Positions 6,876 through 43,237 of a stretch of 64,000 nt of DNA are shown here, in pieces. Location: contig NZ_BJVJ01000013.1 of NCBI RefSeq assembly GCF_007989085.1, positions 1-64,000 of the forward strand. Reading direction: 5' to 3'. Numbering within the stretch: the first letter of the stretch is position 1; every line of letters begins with the position of its first letter. The notes beneath the pieces were generated by a model. The model saw nothing but the letters and a program-made list of their open reading frames with translations. It was not told the DNA's origin and made no database searches. Origin of the DNA: Pseudonocardia sulfidoxydans NBRC 16205 (lineage in GTDB: Bacteria; Actinomycetota; Actinomycetes; Mycobacteriales; Pseudonocardiaceae). The position numbers and the translations under genes were made by a program.

Positions 6876-6886
6876 CGGAGAATCTC

Positions 6887-7003
6887 CTCATCTTCCCCGC
6901 ACGAAGCGGGTCGGAATTGGCACCGTGATCGTCACTCGCGATGGTCGTGCGACGCCGGTTGCCGGGGTGTCAACGGGCCGTTCCCTCTACCCCTCTGGAT
7001 GAG
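6887..7003 (-). promoter_or_regulatory. SAM-I (S-box) riboswitch in the thrC leader
   Basis: On the minus strand the 117-nt element reads CTCATCCAGAGGGG, then TAGAGGGAACGGCCCG, then CACCCCGGCAACC, then GGTGCCAATTCC, and closes with AAGATGAG, which is the S-box consensus in order. P1 pairs CTCATC (7003-6998) with GATGAG (6892-6887). The 3' strand of P1 runs directly into GAGGAGA, the thrC ribosome-binding site. SAM binding, which stabilises P1, should therefore mask part of the Shine-Dalgarno. No transcription terminator with a U-tract lies between the aptamer and the start codon, which supports translational control. Confidence 0.93.
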
Positions 7004-7151
7004 CCATATTCGATTGTGCGAGCCCGGGGCCACGCGGACCGTGCCGGTGCTCGTGACAACCGTACGACATCTGTCTCCCGGACGCGAAACAGTGGTCCGG
7101 GATCTGGGAGGCGGGTCACGTCCTAGGCGGGTGCTGGGCCACGATGAGGGG

Positions 7152-33368: not shown

Positions 33369-33785
33369 TCAGTCCATGGTCTTCTCGAGCAGGTCGGTGA
33401 GCGCCGCGTCGAAGTCGAGCCACGAGTACTCGCCGCCCTGGGGGACGGCCGCGTAGGTGTGCTCCAGGAAGTCCGACAGCACCGACGCCGACGCGTGGAA
33501 GCGCGCATGACCCGACGGCGAGGTGAGCACGAGCTCCACCTGGTCGCGCTCGATCGGGGCGACCGTCACGTCGCCGTCGCCCGAGGCCTCCGACAGGCCG
33601 TCGGCCAGCAGCTCGCGGGCGAAGACCCAGACGACCGGCTGCGCATTGCCCGTGCGGAACGACGCCTCGACCGCGAAAGGGTCCTTGACCGAGTAGGCCA
33701 GCTCGACGTTCACCGAGACCGTCGAGTCGGGAGCGATCAGCTCGAACACCGTCTGCTTGCAGATGATGTTGGTTACGTCGCGCAT
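33369..33785 (-). CDS. SsgA family sporulation/cell division regulator (SALP)
   Basis: 138 residues. Opens with V-T-N-I-I-C-K-Q-T-V-F-E-L and has V-E-L-A-Y-S-V-K-D-P-F-A-V-E-A-S-F, V-V-W-V-F-A-R-E-L-L and F-L-E-H-T-Y, all SsgA/SsgB-like. In Streptomyces these proteins position FtsZ for sporulation septa; SsgB-type members occur in all sporulating actinomycetes. The single family member seen here could be the SsgB orthologue. Divergent from the ECF sigma gene. Confidence 0.9.
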   Translation of the reverse strand: MRDVTNIICKQTVFELIAPDSTVSVNVELAYSVKDPFAVEASFRTGNAQPVVWVFARELLADGLSEASGDGDVTVAPIERDQVELVLTSPSGHARFHASASVLSDFLEHTYAAVPQGGEYSWLDFDAALTDLLEKTMD

Positions 33786-34028
33786 CGTGCTCCTCTTCCT
33801 GGGGTCCCGCGTGGTCCGTCATGCACAAAAACGAGCGTGTCGCGAAGATGTGACGGGTCGACTGCGGCGAGTCCGCCCGAAAGATCGGCGAAATCCACCC
33901 GGGAGGGTGCTCCGAGGGCCTCGGCAACGCCCCGACCTGCATGATCGCCGCGCGGGGGGACGTGTGGGCAACATAGGGTGAACCGCGCACCCGGGACGGT
34001 GCGAACTACGAGCGTGAGGAACACCCTG

Positions 34029-34706
34029 GTGGCCGACCCGACCGGCGAGCGTGACCCGTCGGGTCCGCGCGGCCGCTCGCACGACGGCCCGGGTCGCCCG
34101 CCACGGCCCCTGGCGGAACCCGCCGACGACACCCTCGTCCGCCGCATGGCCGGCGGCGACTCCACCGCCCTCGCCGCGCTCTACGACCGCTACGGCCGGC
34201 CCGCCTTCTCCCTCGCCCGCAGGATCTGCGCCGACGAGGGCATCGCCGAGGACGTCGTCCAGGAGGTGTTCCTCGCCGTGTGGCGCGACCCCGCCCGCTT
34301 CGACCCGCGGCGCGGCGCCTTCGGCTCCTGGCTGATGACGCTCGTCCACCACAAGTCCGTCGACGCCGTCCGCCGCGAGAGCGCCGTCCGCCGCCGAACC
34401 GTGCCCGCGAGCGACGACACCGACGACCGCTCCGCCCCCGCCGGACCCGGCGCCGACCAGGCCGCGCTCGGCGCCGTCGTCGCCGGGCAGGTCCGCGACG
34501 CCCTCGGTGCCCTGCCCGACGAACAACGCGAAGCCCTCGCCCTCGCCTACTTCGGCGGCTACACCCAACGCGAGGTCGCCGCCCTCGTCGGCGTGCCCCT
34601 CGGCACCGTCAAGTCACGCATGTTCACCGGCATCCAGAAACTGCGCGGCAAACTCGGCCCCCTGTTCGGCGACGTCCCCGGCGACGCGACCGGAGGTGCC
34701 CGGTGA
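34029..34706 (+). CDS. ECF RNA polymerase sigma factor
   Basis: 225 residues from GTG, preceded by GAGGA at eight bases. In-frame GTGs at 33978 and nearby are alternatives. Region 2: L-Y-D-R-Y-G-R-P-A-F-S-L-A-R-R-I and A-E-D-V-V-Q-E-V-F-L-A-V-W. Region 4: L-P-D-E-Q-R-E-A-L-A-L-A-Y-F-G-G-Y-T-Q-R-E-V-A and L-G-T-V-K-S-R. These resemble SigK/SigL-type sigma factors paired with RskA-like anti-sigma proteins. It overlaps the anti-sigma gene by GTGA. Confidence 0.92.
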   Translation: MADPTGERDPSGPRGRSHDGPGRPPRPLAEPADDTLVRRMAGGDSTALAALYDRYGRPAFSLARRICADEGIAEDVVQEVFLAVWRDPARFDPRRGAFGSWLMTLVHHKSVDAVRRESAVRRRTVPASDDTDDRSAPAGPGADQAALGAVVAGQVRDALGALPDEQREALALAYFGGYTQREVAALVGVPLGTVKSRMFTGIQKLRGKLGPLFGDVPGDATGGAR

Positions 34707-35554
34707 ACCGTCCCGCCCGGCCCGGCTGCCCACGCGTCGAGCAGGCCGTCGGCCTCGTCCTGCACACCCTCGAACCCGACGAGGAACTCCAGGTCCTCGC
34801 GCACCTGCCCGGCTGCCCCGACTGCACCGCCGCCGTCCGCGACGCAGAGGACGCCCTGGCGACCCTCGGCAGCTCCGTCGACCAGGTCGACCCGCCGCCC
34901 CGGCTGCGCGAGTCGATCCTCGACGCGGCCGCGCGGACCCCGCAGATCGGGCCGCCGCCGAACCCGGCCCCCGCCCCGCCCGCACCCGCGCCGGGACGTC
35001 GTCCTGCGCCGTCGCGGACCGCTGCCCCCACACGTCCCCCGACCGGCGGCGGGCACCGCGCGCCCCGGCGACGCACCCGCACCCTCGTCGCCGCCGCGCT
35101 CGCCCTGATCGTCGCCGCCGGCATCGGCGGGCTCGCCGCCCGCACCGTCCAGCTGCAGAACCAGCGCGACGCCCAGATCCAGCAGACCCAGACGATCGTC
35201 GACATGGTCGCCCAGTTCGACCGCCCCGGCGTCCGACACGCCTGGCTCACCGCCGAACCCGGCCAGAGCCCCGTCGCCGCCGTCATGGTCGACGGCGCCA
35301 CCCGCGCCGTCGTCACCGTCGGCCTCCCCACCAACTCCGCCGCCGACGACACCTACGTCCTCTGGGGAATGGGCGACGGCGACCCCCGCGCGCTCGGCAC
35401 CTTCGACGTCACATCCGCGCAAACCGGACCGCACGACATAGGATCGGGCACTGCGACGGTGGACTACGCCGGGTACGCGATCTCCCTCGAACCCGGCAGA
35501 GCACTCCCCGCCGTCCCCACGAACGTGGTCGCGACCGGGCAGGTGGAGATCTGA
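34703..35554 (+). CDS. Membrane anti-sigma factor (RskA-like)
   Basis: 283 residues from GTG with GGAGG upstream. N-terminal zinc-finger-like sensor-of-sigma domain with H-L-P-G-C-P-D-C (HxxxCxxC) near residue 35, a Pro-rich linker, one membrane helix (L-V-A-A-A-L-A-L-I-V-A-A-G-I-G-G-L-A), and an extracytoplasmic RskA C-terminal domain (V-L-W-G-M-G-D-G-D-P). It should hold the upstream sigma factor at the membrane until proteolysis releases it. Confidence 0.9.
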   Translation: MNRPARPGCPRVEQAVGLVLHTLEPDEELQVLAHLPGCPDCTAAVRDAEDALATLGSSVDQVDPPPRLRESILDAAARTPQIGPPPNPAPAPPAPAPGRRPAPSRTAAPTRPPTGGGHRAPRRRTRTLVAAALALIVAAGIGGLAARTVQLQNQRDAQIQQTQTIVDMVAQFDRPGVRHAWLTAEPGQSPVAAVMVDGATRAVVTVGLPTNSAADDTYVLWGMGDGDPRALGTFDVTSAQTGPHDIGSGTATVDYAGYAISLEPGRALPAVPTNVVATGQVEI

Positions 35555-39488: not shown

Positions 39489-40067
39489 GTGCTGAATCTC
39501 GACCAGATCCTGGAGACGGCGATCGCCCAGGGGCTCGACCGCTTCAGCATGGTCGCCGTCGCCCGGGAGCTCGGCGTGACCGACATGGCGCTCTACCGCT
39601 ACGTCGGGTCCCGGGAGGAGCTGTACTCGCGGGCCGCGGCGCGCGCCCACGCCACGTACCCGCTGCCGGCGGAGCAGACGGGATGGCGCCCGCACCTGCT
39701 GGAGGTCGCCGAGCAGATGTGGCAGCTCGCCCGCCGCCATCCCGGGATCGAGCGCTACCTGCTGGACGGTCCCTACCATCCCGAGACCCTGCAGCTGTTC
39801 TCCGAGAGCATCGCCCGTTTCCGGGCGATGGCCCCGGAGTTCACCGACGACCAGGCCTACGTCCTGCTCAGCCGCGTCGTCTCGGTCACCCTCGCCGCGG
39901 CGGACAACGCCCTGAGCAGGCGCTGGCAGGCCGATCCCGACGAGCCGAGCGAGCTCTTCCGGTGGACGGTGCGTGCCCTCGTCGACGGTATGGTCGCCGG
40001 CCTCGCCGATCTCCCGGGCGACGGATCGGCCCGCGCGCTCGGCCCGGAGAGCGCCGTCAGCCCGTAG
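39489..40067 (+). CDS. TetR/AcrR family transcriptional regulator
   Basis: 192 residues from GTG. The HTH is formed by F-S-M-V-A-V-A-R-E-L-G-V-T-D-M-A-L-Y-R-Y-V-G-S-R-E-E-L; the C-terminal part is helical with the TetR_C-like L-V-D-G-M-V-A-G-L near the end. It is placed between the exporter and the convergent siderophore-binding protein gene, with which it overlaps by 11 bases at the 3' ends. Likely represses the exporter. Confidence 0.88.
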   Translation: MLNLDQILETAIAQGLDRFSMVAVARELGVTDMALYRYVGSREELYSRAAARAHATYPLPAEQTGWRPHLLEVAEQMWQLARRHPGIERYLLDGPYHPETLQLFSESIARFRAMAPEFTDDQAYVLLSRVVSVTLAAADNALSRRWQADPDEPSELFRWTVRALVDGMVAGLADLPGDGSARALGPESAVSP

Positions 40068-41013
40068 CGGTACGCAGGAACGGCAGCATCGCGTCGATGC
40101 CGTACGGGATCGACAGCACCGACGGTGACGACAGCGCCAGGTCGGGCAGGAAGTACGCGTGCCCGTTCTTCACCGCGTTCAGGTTCGCGAGGCCGACGTT
40201 GCCCGCCAGGACCTCGTCGCGGCTCGAACCGAACCCGTAGACGAGCAGCACGTCGGAGTCGATACGGGGGAGCAGCTCGGCGGAGAGGGCGTGCTGGGTG
40301 TCGGAGGCGGGCAGCGCCTCGACGTACGGGGTGTCGACGAAGCCCAGTTCGTGCATCGTCGTGACCACGGTGGCCTCTTTGCCGCCGACGTAGGTCTCGC
40401 CCGAGACGACGTCGAGATAGGTCACGGTCTTCCCGGCGAACGACGGGTTGTCCGTGGCGGTACGCCGCAGGTAGGCCTCGGTGGCGGTCACGAGTGTGTC
40501 GCCCTCGGCCGGCTTGCCCAGGGCCTGCGCGATCAGCCGGGTCGAGTCCTGCCACCGGGGTGAGTAGGGCTGGGCGCCGGTCGGCAGCGCGACGGTCGGG
40601 GCGATCTTGGAGAGCGTGTCGAACTCCTCGCGGTCACCGCCGGAGGCGACGTTGATGATCAGGTCGGGACGCGCGGCGGCGATCGCCTCGTACGACAGTT
40701 CGCGTCCGCCCGTCACCGCGGGGGTCGCCGTCCCGAGCTTCTGCTCGGCCCAGGCGCCGACGCCGCGTTCGAACCCGTAGCGGCTGTGGATCGCAACCGG
40801 GACAACGCCCAGCGCGAGCACCGCGTCGGCGTCCGACGGGCCGAGCGTGACGACGCGGACCGGCTCCTTCGGGATCGTGGTCGAGCCGAGCGAGTGCGTG
40901 ACGGTCACCGGGAAGGACGTCGTCTCGGCGGGCTGCTGCTCCGCCGCCGGGGGTGTGGCGCTGCACCCGGCCAGCACCAGGACGAGGGCGGCGGCGCCCA
41001 GGAGTCGCTTCAT
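40057..41013 (-). CDS. Iron-siderophore ABC transporter substrate-binding lipoprotein
   Basis: 318 residues. Signal peptide with lipobox V-L-A-G-C (Cys about 17). FecB-like fold: V-R-V-V-T-L-G-P-S-D-A-D-A-V-L-A-L-G, A-R-P-D-L-I-I-N-V-A-S-G, V-L-L-V-Y-G-F-G. Second such lipoprotein in the window, only distantly similar to the one at 26816-27841. Upstream lies a perfect 8-5-8 inverted repeat; a poor half iron box (CTTAGGAT) also precedes the ATG. Confidence 0.9.
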   Translation of the reverse strand: MKRLLGAAALVLVLAGCSATPPAAEQQPAETTSFPVTVTHSLGSTTIPKEPVRVVTLGPSDADAVLALGVVPVAIHSRYGFERGVGAWAEQKLGTATPAVTGGRELSYEAIAAARPDLIINVASGGDREEFDTLSKIAPTVALPTGAQPYSPRWQDSTRLIAQALGKPAEGDTLVTATEAYLRRTATDNPSFAGKTVTYLDVVSGETYVGGKEATVVTTMHELGFVDTPYVEALPASDTQHALSAELLPRIDSDVLLVYGFGSSRDEVLAGNVGLANLNAVKNGHAYFLPDLALSSPSVLSIPYGIDAMLPFLRTATG

Positions 41014-41029
41014 GAGGGCATCCTAAGTC

Positions 41030-41050
41030 GTTGTTTGGACATCAAACAAC
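41030..41050 (-). promoter_or_regulatory. Perfect inverted repeat GTTGTTTG-N5-CAAACAAC
   Basis: 8-bp arms with spacer GACAT, 17-37 bases before the siderophore-binding protein start. AT-rich against its surroundings, typical of a MarR- or TetR-type operator. The adjacent TetR protein is a candidate binder. Confidence 0.65.
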
Positions 41051-41447
41051 AGGGGTTGCACAGGGCGACGACGCCGGGGCGGCACGGGCGTCGAGCAGGG
41101 CGTGGCCGCGCCGCGCACACGATCGGGCACACCCTCGGCGACGCGAGGACGTCGTCCCCGATCAGGTCCGTGGCGGACCCGGTCGCCGGCGCGCCGGCGA
41201 CGACCGTCGCGCCCTCGGGTGCCTGCACCGCAATGCGGAACTCGCAGCGTCAGCCTCTGGTGGAGGGAAAGATCGGCCCCGCGGGACGACGTGCAGGAGC
41301 AGCCGGAGGGCCTGTGCCCGTCCGAAGGTGGTGGAAAGGGGGGTTTACCCCCTCCTGTCCGGGGGTGCACTCGATCCACATCGCGGCAGGAAACCGGCAA
41401 AGTTCTCGTCAGCGAAGGAACACCGGAAACGACGAAGGAGCCCCAGA
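41051..41447. other. 397-bp region upstream of the DKY-repeat gene
   Basis: No supported coding frame. It must contain the promoter of the downstream small gene; GGGGGGTTTACCCCC at about 41338-41352 is a short hairpin-like sequence, and GACGAAGGAG gives the ribosome site. Confidence 0.45.
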
Positions 41448-41732
41448 ATGTTCAAGAGCACCTGCCCCTCCAAGTCCTACGACAACGACAAGTGGGACGG
41501 CGGCTACGGCGGCTACGGCGGCAAGAACGACAAGTGGGACAACGACAAGTGGGACGGCTACGGCGGCAAGGACAAGTGGAACGACTGCGACGACAAGTAC
41601 GGGAAGTACGACAAGTACGAGGACTGTGACAGCAAGTACGACAAGTACGACGACTGCGACGACAAGTACGGCAGCAAGTACGACTGCGACGACAAGTACG
41701 GCAAGTGCGACGACTGGTCCTACAGCAGCTGA
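41448..41732 (+). CDS. Asp/Lys/Tyr/Gly/Trp/Cys-repeat small protein of unknown function
   Basis: 94 residues starting M-F-K-S-T-C-P-S-K-S-Y-D, with AAGGAG seven bases before the ATG. The protein is almost wholly built of short charged-aromatic units: first D-K-W-D-G/G-Y-G-G repeats, then D-K-Y-G-K-Y-D-K-Y, D-C-D-D-K-Y and similar. Six cysteines, five of them in the repeat part, each next to Asp. No signal peptide or membrane segment. Codons are strictly AAG, TAC, GAC, consistent with a translated host gene rather than noise. Divergent from a siderophore-binding lipoprotein. Possible roles are metal chelation, an extracellular or spore-surface matrix component, or a precursor peptide; none is proven. 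Confidence 0.75.
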   Translation: MFKSTCPSKSYDNDKWDGGYGGYGGKNDKWDNDKWDGYGGKDKWNDCDDKYGKYDKYEDCDSKYDKYDDCDDKYGSKYDCDDKYGKCDDWSYSS

Positions 41733-41826
41733 TCCGACGACCACACGACATGCGCGTCCGGGCCCACCGCCCGGGCGCGCATCGCCGTGTCCGGCCCCGG
41801 CGCCCCGCACCGACCGCGGGGAGCGG

Positions 41827-42641
41827 TCAGCCCTCGACGGGGGACACCGACAGCACTTCGCCGCGCACCGTCGCCGTGAGCATTCCGCTCTGCCTGTGCT
41901 CGTTGGCGACGTAGACGCCGATCTGGTCCACGGGCCGCGTCGGGAAGCCGAACAGCACGTACGTCGAGGTCGGGTCGCTGACGCGCAGCCGCTCCGGGGC
42001 AGTGGCGAGCAGGGCCCGCACCGCGGCGTCATCGACACCTGCGAGGTCGACGAGGGGGCCGTCGAGCTTCCGGTTCCCCGTGAGGTCACTCGCGCCGGAC
42101 CGCGGCGGGTAGGCCACCCGGCGGGTGTGCCGGGCATCGTCGGGCTCGACGATCTCGATCCGCGCGTACGTCGGATAGACGGTCGCCCCGACGACGACGG
42201 TCCCACCGTGCTCCGACCGCAGCCACCCGAGCATCGCCTGCCAGCCCGTCGCGCCGAAGAGGTCCGTGTCCGCGGACGGCGGCGCACCGGCGGCGCCGGG
42301 CGACGTCGACACCGCCGGTCGCGAGCTCGCGATCCCGCACATCGTCGCGACGAGACCCACGCACAACACCACCGCCACGCCGACCAGGTAGGCCCGCGGA
42401 CCGGACCGGACCCGGTGCGCGGCGGGCGCGCGGCGGCGACCGGTGCCGGGTCCGGAGTCTGCAGGTCGGTGGTGAGCGCCGCGAGCTCGGCGAGCGTGGT
42501 CGCGGTCATCGCCGTGGAGATGCGTTCGCGGTGCTCGACGGTGTCGAGCTGCCCGTCGACGAGCGCGCTGTCGAGGATCGCGCAGGTCGCGGACCGGTCG
42601 GCGTCGCGCGCCCGGGTGGCCCGCCGCGACACCCCGCTCAC
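41827..42641 (-). pseudogene. DUF1707 / membrane-anchored protein broken by a 5-bp repeat expansion
   Basis: The start GTG at 42641 overlaps the DUF998 stop (GTGA). The first frame encodes a DUF1707 domain (R-A-T-R-A-R-D-A-D-R-S-A-T-C-A-I-L-D, L-D-T-V-E-H-R-E-R). Near residue 80 the reading runs into three tandem GGACC units (GGTCC on the coding strand) and leaves frame. The remaining frame encodes a membrane helix (A-V-V-L-C-V-G-L-V-A-T-M-C-G) and an extracellular 150-residue domain to the stop at 41827. Removing one 5-base unit restores one continuous frame of about 270 residues. It could be a sequencing or assembly error, a recent mutation, or a phase-variable switch. Confidence 0.8.
42398..42412 (-). 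repeat. GGACC x3 short tandem repeat
   Basis: Three exact copies of a 5-base unit inside the DUF1707 gene; two copies would keep the gene in frame. Confidence 0.9.
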
Positions 42642-43237
42642 GACACGTCCCGGGTGCGGTCGGGCAGGTCGGCGATGCCCACCGCCGCGACCGCGAGCAT
42701 CCACAGCGAGCACCCGACGAGATAGACGCGTTGCGCGACGCCGAACGCCCCGTGCAGGTCGGCCGCGAGCACCGCGACGACCGCGACGACGAGCCCCGCC
42801 GCTGCGGGCGGCGCCCACCGCCATCGCGGCGACAGCGCCCGCACCGCGAGGACCGCCGCCAGCGGCAGCGTGAAGAATGCGATGTTGCCGAGGACGTTGT
42901 GCACCTGCCCGGTGGTCGTCACCACCCCGGCCGGGTCGATCGGGAAGAACGCCTGCGCCACCTTCGCCGCCCCGAAGATCGCGAGCACGACCGCGGCGGG
43001 CCGCGTCTGCGTCCGCACCGCCCAGGCGAGCGCGAGTGCACCGAGGCCGACGATCCCCGTCGCCACCGCTGCCGCCCACCCGTACGCGCCCAACGCGTAC
43101 TCGCTGGTCGGGCGCGTCAGCGGATCCACCTCCGGGCGCGCGATGTGGAACACCGCGAGGACAACGAGATCGACGATCGCGGCGACGATCGTGACCACCA
43201 GGAAGGGCATCGTCGCAGCCCGGCGCGAAGGAGACAT
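42638..43237 (-). CDS. DUF998 family membrane protein
   Basis: 199 residues from ATG with GAAGGAG just upstream. Six membrane helices, with R-P-T-S-E-Y-A-L-G-A-Y-G-W in the first loop and F-F-P-I-D-P-A-G, H-N-V-L-G-N-I-A-F-F later, typical of DUF998. Translationally coupled to the DUF1707 gene. Function unknown. Confidence 0.85.
   Translation of the reverse strand: MSPSRRAATMPFLVVTIVAAIVDLVVLAVFHIARPEVDPLTRPTSEYALGAYGWAAAVATGIVGLGALALAWAVRTQTRPAAVVLAIFGAAKVAQAFFPIDPAGVVTTTGQVHNVLGNIAFFTLPLAAVLAVRALSPRWRWAPPAAAGLVVAVVAVLAADLHGAFGVAQRVYLVGCSLWMLAVAAVGIADLPDRTRDVS

Follow-up and report, generated by a model that had tools for sequence, protein, structure and literature searches.

The window analysed here, a 64-kb (64,000-nucleotide) stretch of Pseudonocardia sulfidoxydans DNA, encodes a 94-residue protein belonging to a family that is undescribed as far as our searches reach. 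We refer to its members as MFKS proteins. There are 33 copies in 4 of 62 Pseudonocardia genomes, 26 of them full-length. Our preferred reading, to which we give a probability of roughly 0.4, is that these disordered proteins stay inside the cell, bind metal, are prone to form condensates and are produced as a co-regulated set. We call the family novel because the libraries searched returned no family match and because it failed tests of membership among the metallothioneins and the chaplins and rodlins; its mode of action may yet turn out to be akin to a known one.

The Gene and Its Protein

The features of the locus are collected in Table 1. The window protein begins MFKSTCPSK and continues in DKW, GGYGG and KYDDCDDKY-like units. 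It has 6 Cys, 13 Tyr, 5 Trp, 25 Asp plus Glu, 17 Lys plus Arg and no His; Cys and His together amount to 6%, and Gly to 12.8%. The coding DNA carries imperfect tandem repeats with periods of 9 to 39, and codon choice is strict, with AAG for all 17 Lys, TAC for all 13 Tyr and GAC for all 24 Asp. The initial annotation had described a small protein with six cysteines, a good ribosome site and strict codon use, and this is borne out by the sequence. The segment holding the terminator-like hairpin (41733–41800) folds at −40.1 kcal/mol.

Table 1. Features at and around the MFKS gene of the window
Feature	Position	Strand	Basis or comment
SAM riboswitch	6885–7005	−	
SsgA-domain gene, divergent ECF sigma factor, RskA-type anti-sigma gene	33369–35554		about 6–8 kb from the MFKS gene
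Siderophore-binding gene	40057–41013	−	start at 41013
695-residue frame	40786–42873	+	overlaps the MFKS gene and its neighbours; taken as spurious
Palindrome	41030–41050		perfect 8-base arms
LysR-like match	41286–41309		24 bases
Box A, G-rich dyad GGGGGGTTTACCCCC	41338–41352	+	33-copy upstream alignment; departs from the exact form GTGGGGTYNNCCCC
Box B, CGGGGGTGCACTCGATC	41360–41376	+	spacing to box C in text
Box C, AAACCGGCAAAGTTCTCGTCA	41391–41411	+	3 mismatches to the 21-base form
Possible −10 element CAAAGT, in box C	41398–41403	+	inferred
Shine–Dalgarno AAGGAG	41435–41440	+	sequence; C-rich spacer after it, counted
MFKS coding sequence, 94 aa (ATG 41448, TGA 41732)	41448–41732	+	ORF and relatives in other genomes
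Terminator-like hairpin 3′ of the gene	41750–41782	+	two 14-base arms, 5-base loop; no T run after

High-G+C DNA yields many long spurious frames, and a 695-residue frame overlaps this very gene. Judged by its relatives, the MFKS frame is a gene and more than a chance repeat, because they keep the N-terminus, the composition and the promoter boxes in three other Pseudonocardia genomes. The search for homologues with a conserved N-terminus, proposed in the initial annotation, thus had a positive outcome, and we reject the chance frame, whose probability is virtually nil.

Family Membership and Distribution

A protein-level search of 60 related genomes gave matches in 2 of them, with one further copy in the window's own genome and four in one other. 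With a relative as the query, matches appeared in 4 of the 62 genomes of the genus; the back-translated start returned the same four, and a profile search reached paralogs at a greater distance, still in four of the 62 genomes. A second subfamily, with the start MFKS[HS]C, was exposed via loci having an upstream dyad (see below), and its members were listed with the pattern ATGTTYAARWSNNNNTGY, which gave 37 rows in 8 of 62 genomes. Five rows unlike the family were dropped (G020, G033, G077, G081 and G000:C79). The remaining 32, plus one copy of the window's genome that starts with ATA, make up the 33. That copy (G000b, at G000:C31:45863, locus L016) has an ortholog with ATG in Pseudonocardia sp. 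N23. The carriers are the window's own genome (G000, 4 copies), G017, which we take to be P. dioxanivorans CB1190 (9), G075 (9) and G078, which is N23 (11). Among the incomplete copies, G075a, e, f and h and G078d are cut off by the ends of their contigs and G075b is interrupted by N, and G075c is a short form of 33 residues.

A family-level profile search of 390 genomes in 46 genera returned the same four carriers and none outside the genus. Order-level searches with two profiles, the second having one wrong residue, each matched 1 of 397 genomes, the window's own. A scan with the window protein of one genome per species in 84,980 species, which is sensitive to close relatives only and did not pick up G017, gave three loci, each of them in N23. 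These distributions are samples of genomes, and relatives too distant for the profiles may exist in the collections; ATGTTCAAGWSNNNNTGY with box C 5′ of it is the signature we suggest for a wider search.

The statement that the protein resembles no known family has held up: the window protein matched no family in Pfam, NCBIfam or PHROGs, and a nine-member profile matched no chain in the PDB. Nine sister proteins, one with a wrong residue, had no Pfam family, and the one weak match in the family searches, to Crl in one of nine members, had a nonsignificant E of 0.13. Two members run against PHROGs had no match. A viral origin was rejected, as one DNA pattern and one profile found no relative in viral contigs (31 stretches matched a pattern, none of them related), and so was a plasmid origin, the window protein having no relative in the plasmid collection. 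At the level of titles and abstract openings, the literature, including queries with five family peptides, held nothing on the family.

A Shared Promoter Design

The alignment of the upstream regions of all 33 copies contains three boxes. The box C core GGCARAGTTCTYCTCA is exact in 20 copies and within one mismatch in 27, as compared to 4 to 8 mismatches for the best core in a shuffle control with one shuffle per upstream region. The end of the best box B match and the box C core are separated by exactly 19 bp in 28 of 33 copies; these 28 matches have 0 to 5 mismatches to a 16-base consensus. The distance from the start of box C to the ATG varies from 50 to 108 bp in 32 copies; for the remaining one, G017g, the scan took another site. 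A hexamer CA(A/G)(A/G)(G/A)T lies inside box C in 32 of 33 copies and could be a −10 element.

A search of the 62 genomes for the longer 21-base form of box C, AAACGGGCAAAGTTCTTCTCA, which does not cover the variant of the second subfamily, gave 19 sites at up to 3 mismatches, none of them outside the four carriers. Seventeen of these precede family genes and two lie in units without an ORF. The reversed sequence, used as a control, has a single match, in a noncarrier genome. Counts of the exact dyad GTGGGGTYNNCCCC in six genomes gave 9, 9, 10 and 13 sites in the carriers versus 1 and 0 in the two others. Reading the 41 carrier sites by position, 12 lie before a family gene, 2 before an ORF-less unit and 27 before neither. 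Some of these 27 lie ahead of a histidine kinase/response regulator pair that diverges from a DnaK-like gene, an arrangement present in all four carriers (L119:13457, L126:3953, L129:2598 and L133:2628), the Pfam run covering the pair of the window's genome. As a guess, this pair is a candidate controller of the MFKS family. Elsewhere, two dyads 26 bp apart are conserved in two genomes (L120:4080–4119 and L130:4275–4314), flanked by genes that by eye are amidohydrolase-like and LmbE-like.

The Siderophore-Binding Neighbour

The initial annotation had suggested a connection to iron through the siderophore-binding gene on the other strand and a 21-base operator-like repeat between the two genes. 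The repeat is real, being the palindrome GTTGTTTG-GACAT-CAAACAAC, which is partly kept in G075, but its place is at the siderophore gene's own start, 16 bp upstream, and about 400 bp from the MFKS gene. It is probably the operator of the siderophore-binding gene. By flanking sequence or genes, the window copy corresponds to G078c and G075a. In G075, the siderophore ortholog is 85% identical and is separated from the family gene by some 5.4 kb, and the genes between them include one that is LysR-like by eye.

Five pieces of the 434-bp gap in the window have counterparts in G075 in the same order, with weaker out-of-order matches as well. The five are the upstream end of the siderophore gene (E 3e-9), the start of the LysR-like gene (E 3e-9), the promoter (E 4e-20) and two weak ones (E 7e-4 and 0.002). 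Because these pieces match in order, the siderophore neighbour was most likely brought close by a deletion in the window's lineage. The LysR-like match, 24 bases shared with the start of that gene in G075 and N23, is apparently a remnant of the deleted gene. Given the spacing in G075 and the matches in the gap, the adjacency looks secondary, and the link to iron and siderophores is not supported.

Neighbourhoods and Spread of the Copies

The MFKS copies are dispersed in their genomes, and several loci are syntenic between species. Four copies, G017a and b and G078d and e, are at or in a copper/heavy-metal island encoding an HMA/E1-E2 ATPase, CopC, CtaG, Nramp, a multicopper oxidase, a second E1-E2 ATPase, ArsR and CDF, along with a ZIP-like gene below the Pfam cut-off. 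G078g adjoins the cobalt genes CbtA/CbtB, and G017g adjoins a CDF protein and ArsR. Most copies have other, varied neighbours, and no metal gene adjoins the window copy. There are 37 E1-E2 ATPases in the four genomes, and 4 of 33 copies fall within 5 kb of one versus about 0.5 expected by a hand estimate. This statistic is weak, since all four copies represent one homologous island in two genomes, i.e., one or two independent cases.

Two copies, G017c and G017d, share 98.4% identity over the interval −131 to +367, which contains promoter, gene and tail, and are unrelated beyond it. Two explanations would fit: the unit duplicated recently, or older copies underwent gene conversion. Taken as duplication, and together with the island, where gene order is similar and orientation differs between G017 and G078, it would fit a selfish or mobile cassette in which the promoter–gene–tail unit spreads itself with little function for the host. 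We consider this very unlikely, since gene conversion between old paralogs would leave the same boundaries, several loci are syntenic between species, and pairs in two subfamilies have pN/pS ratios of 0.15–0.30.

Those ratios come from 15 pairs tested, of which 12 gave a value. The low ones belong to the four syntenic pairs G000q/G075q, G000q/G078q, G075q/G078q and G000d/G075g, and are as expected for constrained coding genes. The remaining eight pairs run from 0.37 to 2.34; the window gene and its ortholog G078c are at 2.34, with no sign of constraint. The high figures are soft, given the alignment of repeats and the few synonymous sites, and still provide no evidence of constraint.

Composition, Disorder and Comparison with Known Systems

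The bodies of the MFKS proteins are composed of D, K, Y, W, G, N, S, C and H, with many His in one subfamily. Among the 2,319 residues of the 26 full-length members, there are no Leu, 4 Ala, 3 Val and 2 Ile, whereas Asp makes up 22.7%, Lys 13.5%, Ser 10.9%, Tyr 10.2%, His 7% and Cys 6%. Every one of the 26 (78–105 residues) has 3 to 8 Cys (3–10%) and 12 to 18 Tyr plus Trp. Cys plus His comes to 5–14% in 16 members and 18–24% in the other 10. In an alignment of 17 members, M1, F2, K3, S4 and C6 do not vary, and the start M-F-K-S-x-C holds in all copies except the ATA-start G000b, which was outside that alignment. With AlphaFold2 (nine rows each), the window protein had a mean pLDDT of 44.2 and a sister protein one of 39.3, and the proteins are predicted to be wholly disordered.

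A short conserved start followed by a variable body is also what a precursor of a modified peptide would have, its enzyme being encoded elsewhere. This is extremely unlikely: the start has no helical leader, and no modifying enzyme is common to the inspected neighbourhoods, part of whose genes were run against Pfam.

Metallothioneins have Cys at about a fifth or more of their residues, arranged in CxC or CC clusters, have few or no aromatics, and bind metal in thiolate clusters. Like the bacterial examples MymT and SmtA, the MFKS proteins are small and possibly metal-binding with Cys along the chain, but they differ in their lower Cys content, in their numerous Tyr and Trp, in being rich in Asp and Lys, and in having no Pfam or NCBIfam match. 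Hydrophilins are defined by Gly above 6% and strongly negative hydropathy, are induced by water stress, and usually lack Cys and Trp. The MFKS proteins resemble these and LEA-like proteins in being very hydrophilic (GRAVY −1.76 to −2.48 in 26 of 26) and predicted disordered, and 15 of the 26, including the window protein, have Gly above 6%. A role as a strongly hydrated, hydrophilin-like protectant against osmotic stress or drying has these features in its favour; with Gly not above 6% in 11 members and with frequent Cys and Trp, we place it on the unlikely side.

Also somewhat unlikely is a structural or developmental matrix of cell, wall or spore, in which Tyr, Trp, Lys and Asp would drive condensation, and disulfides or dityrosine would harden the product. 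The abundance of Tyr, Trp and Cys and the high number of dispersed copies fit this, as does the presence, some 8 kb from the window copy, of a gene with an SsgA domain (sporulation/cell division). About 3.3 kb from G078c is a gene whose N-terminus is nearly that of this SsgA-domain gene, and genes looking similar to the SsgA/ECF/RskA set are near G078c. Most copies, however, have no such neighbour. The nearest bacterial precedents, the Streptomyces chaplins and rodlins, likewise have several dispersed paralogs of a short protein per genome; they carry a signal peptide and a hydrophobic domain and are recognised by family models, whereas in the MFKS proteins neither element is visible by eye, there is no Pfam family, and Ala, Val, Ile and Leu account for 9 of the 2,319 residues. 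Animal coacervate proteins such as those of mussel foot and squid beak are likewise of low complexity and built from Tyr, Gly, Lys, Asp, His and Trp, but they are eukaryotic and secreted, and the likeness is in composition only.

RNA Features

Among 27 tails (6,076 nt, six cut copies being left out), 8 carry hairpins with a GTGGG loop on a stem of 5 bp or more, 10 in all, as compared to two in both strands of the window. Of the 33 copies, 18 have CCCC in the last 14 nt before the start; among the genes of the window, 2 of 43 do. Three ORF-less units are present in N23, namely L077, L074 and L041:2858. L077 is, by eye, a place matching G075b from which the gene is missing. L074 (1350–1800) and L041 (2858–3090) have family-like promoter boxes, two hairpins each with G-rich loops (one of them a four-base loop) and a strong end hairpin, and are possible non-coding RNAs. 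An Rfam-type search of leader, tail and ORF-less units gave no plausible family, only weak matches to microRNA and rhizobial models plus a tRNA.

The GTGGG loop and the C-rich spacer are complementary, and it is speculation that they pair. Carried further, this would be a dedicated regulon of disordered, leucine-free metal-condensate proteins in which GUGGG tail hairpins, and ORF-less transcripts made from promoters of this design and bearing two such hairpins apiece, pair with C-rich ribosome sites of the family (such as GGAGCCCCCAAAUG) and set dosage, an idea we consider doubtful and quite unlikely. Counting against it at the window copy, CCCC is present there and no GTGGG hairpin occurs within 230 nt.

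Proposed Function

Returning to the metal-binding reading, the MFKS proteins would remain in the cell, as suggested by the lack of a signal peptide by eye, and would serve as soft sinks for metal. Clusters of Asp, Cys and His would each take up transition-metal ions in loose binding and in large numbers, and the chains would be able to condense through their alternating charges and through contacts of Tyr, Trp and Gly. Several co-regulated copies together could then form a sizeable metal buffer or store. Some copies sit at metal-resistance loci; on this reading, the window copy would be a general copy on the chromosome. Metal binding is plausible given the 18–24% Cys plus His of 10 of the 26 members and the several copies beside metal-transport genes. 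Counted against it are the window copy's own 6%, its lack of a metal neighbour, the other neighbours of most copies and the window gene's pN/pS of 2.3 with G078c.

The shared promoter offers an entry point toward the regulator. With their near-absence of aliphatic residues and their 4 to 11 copies per genome, these proteins would lend themselves to studies of how simple disordered chains of charged and aromatic residues function in bacteria and of whether such chains bind metals.
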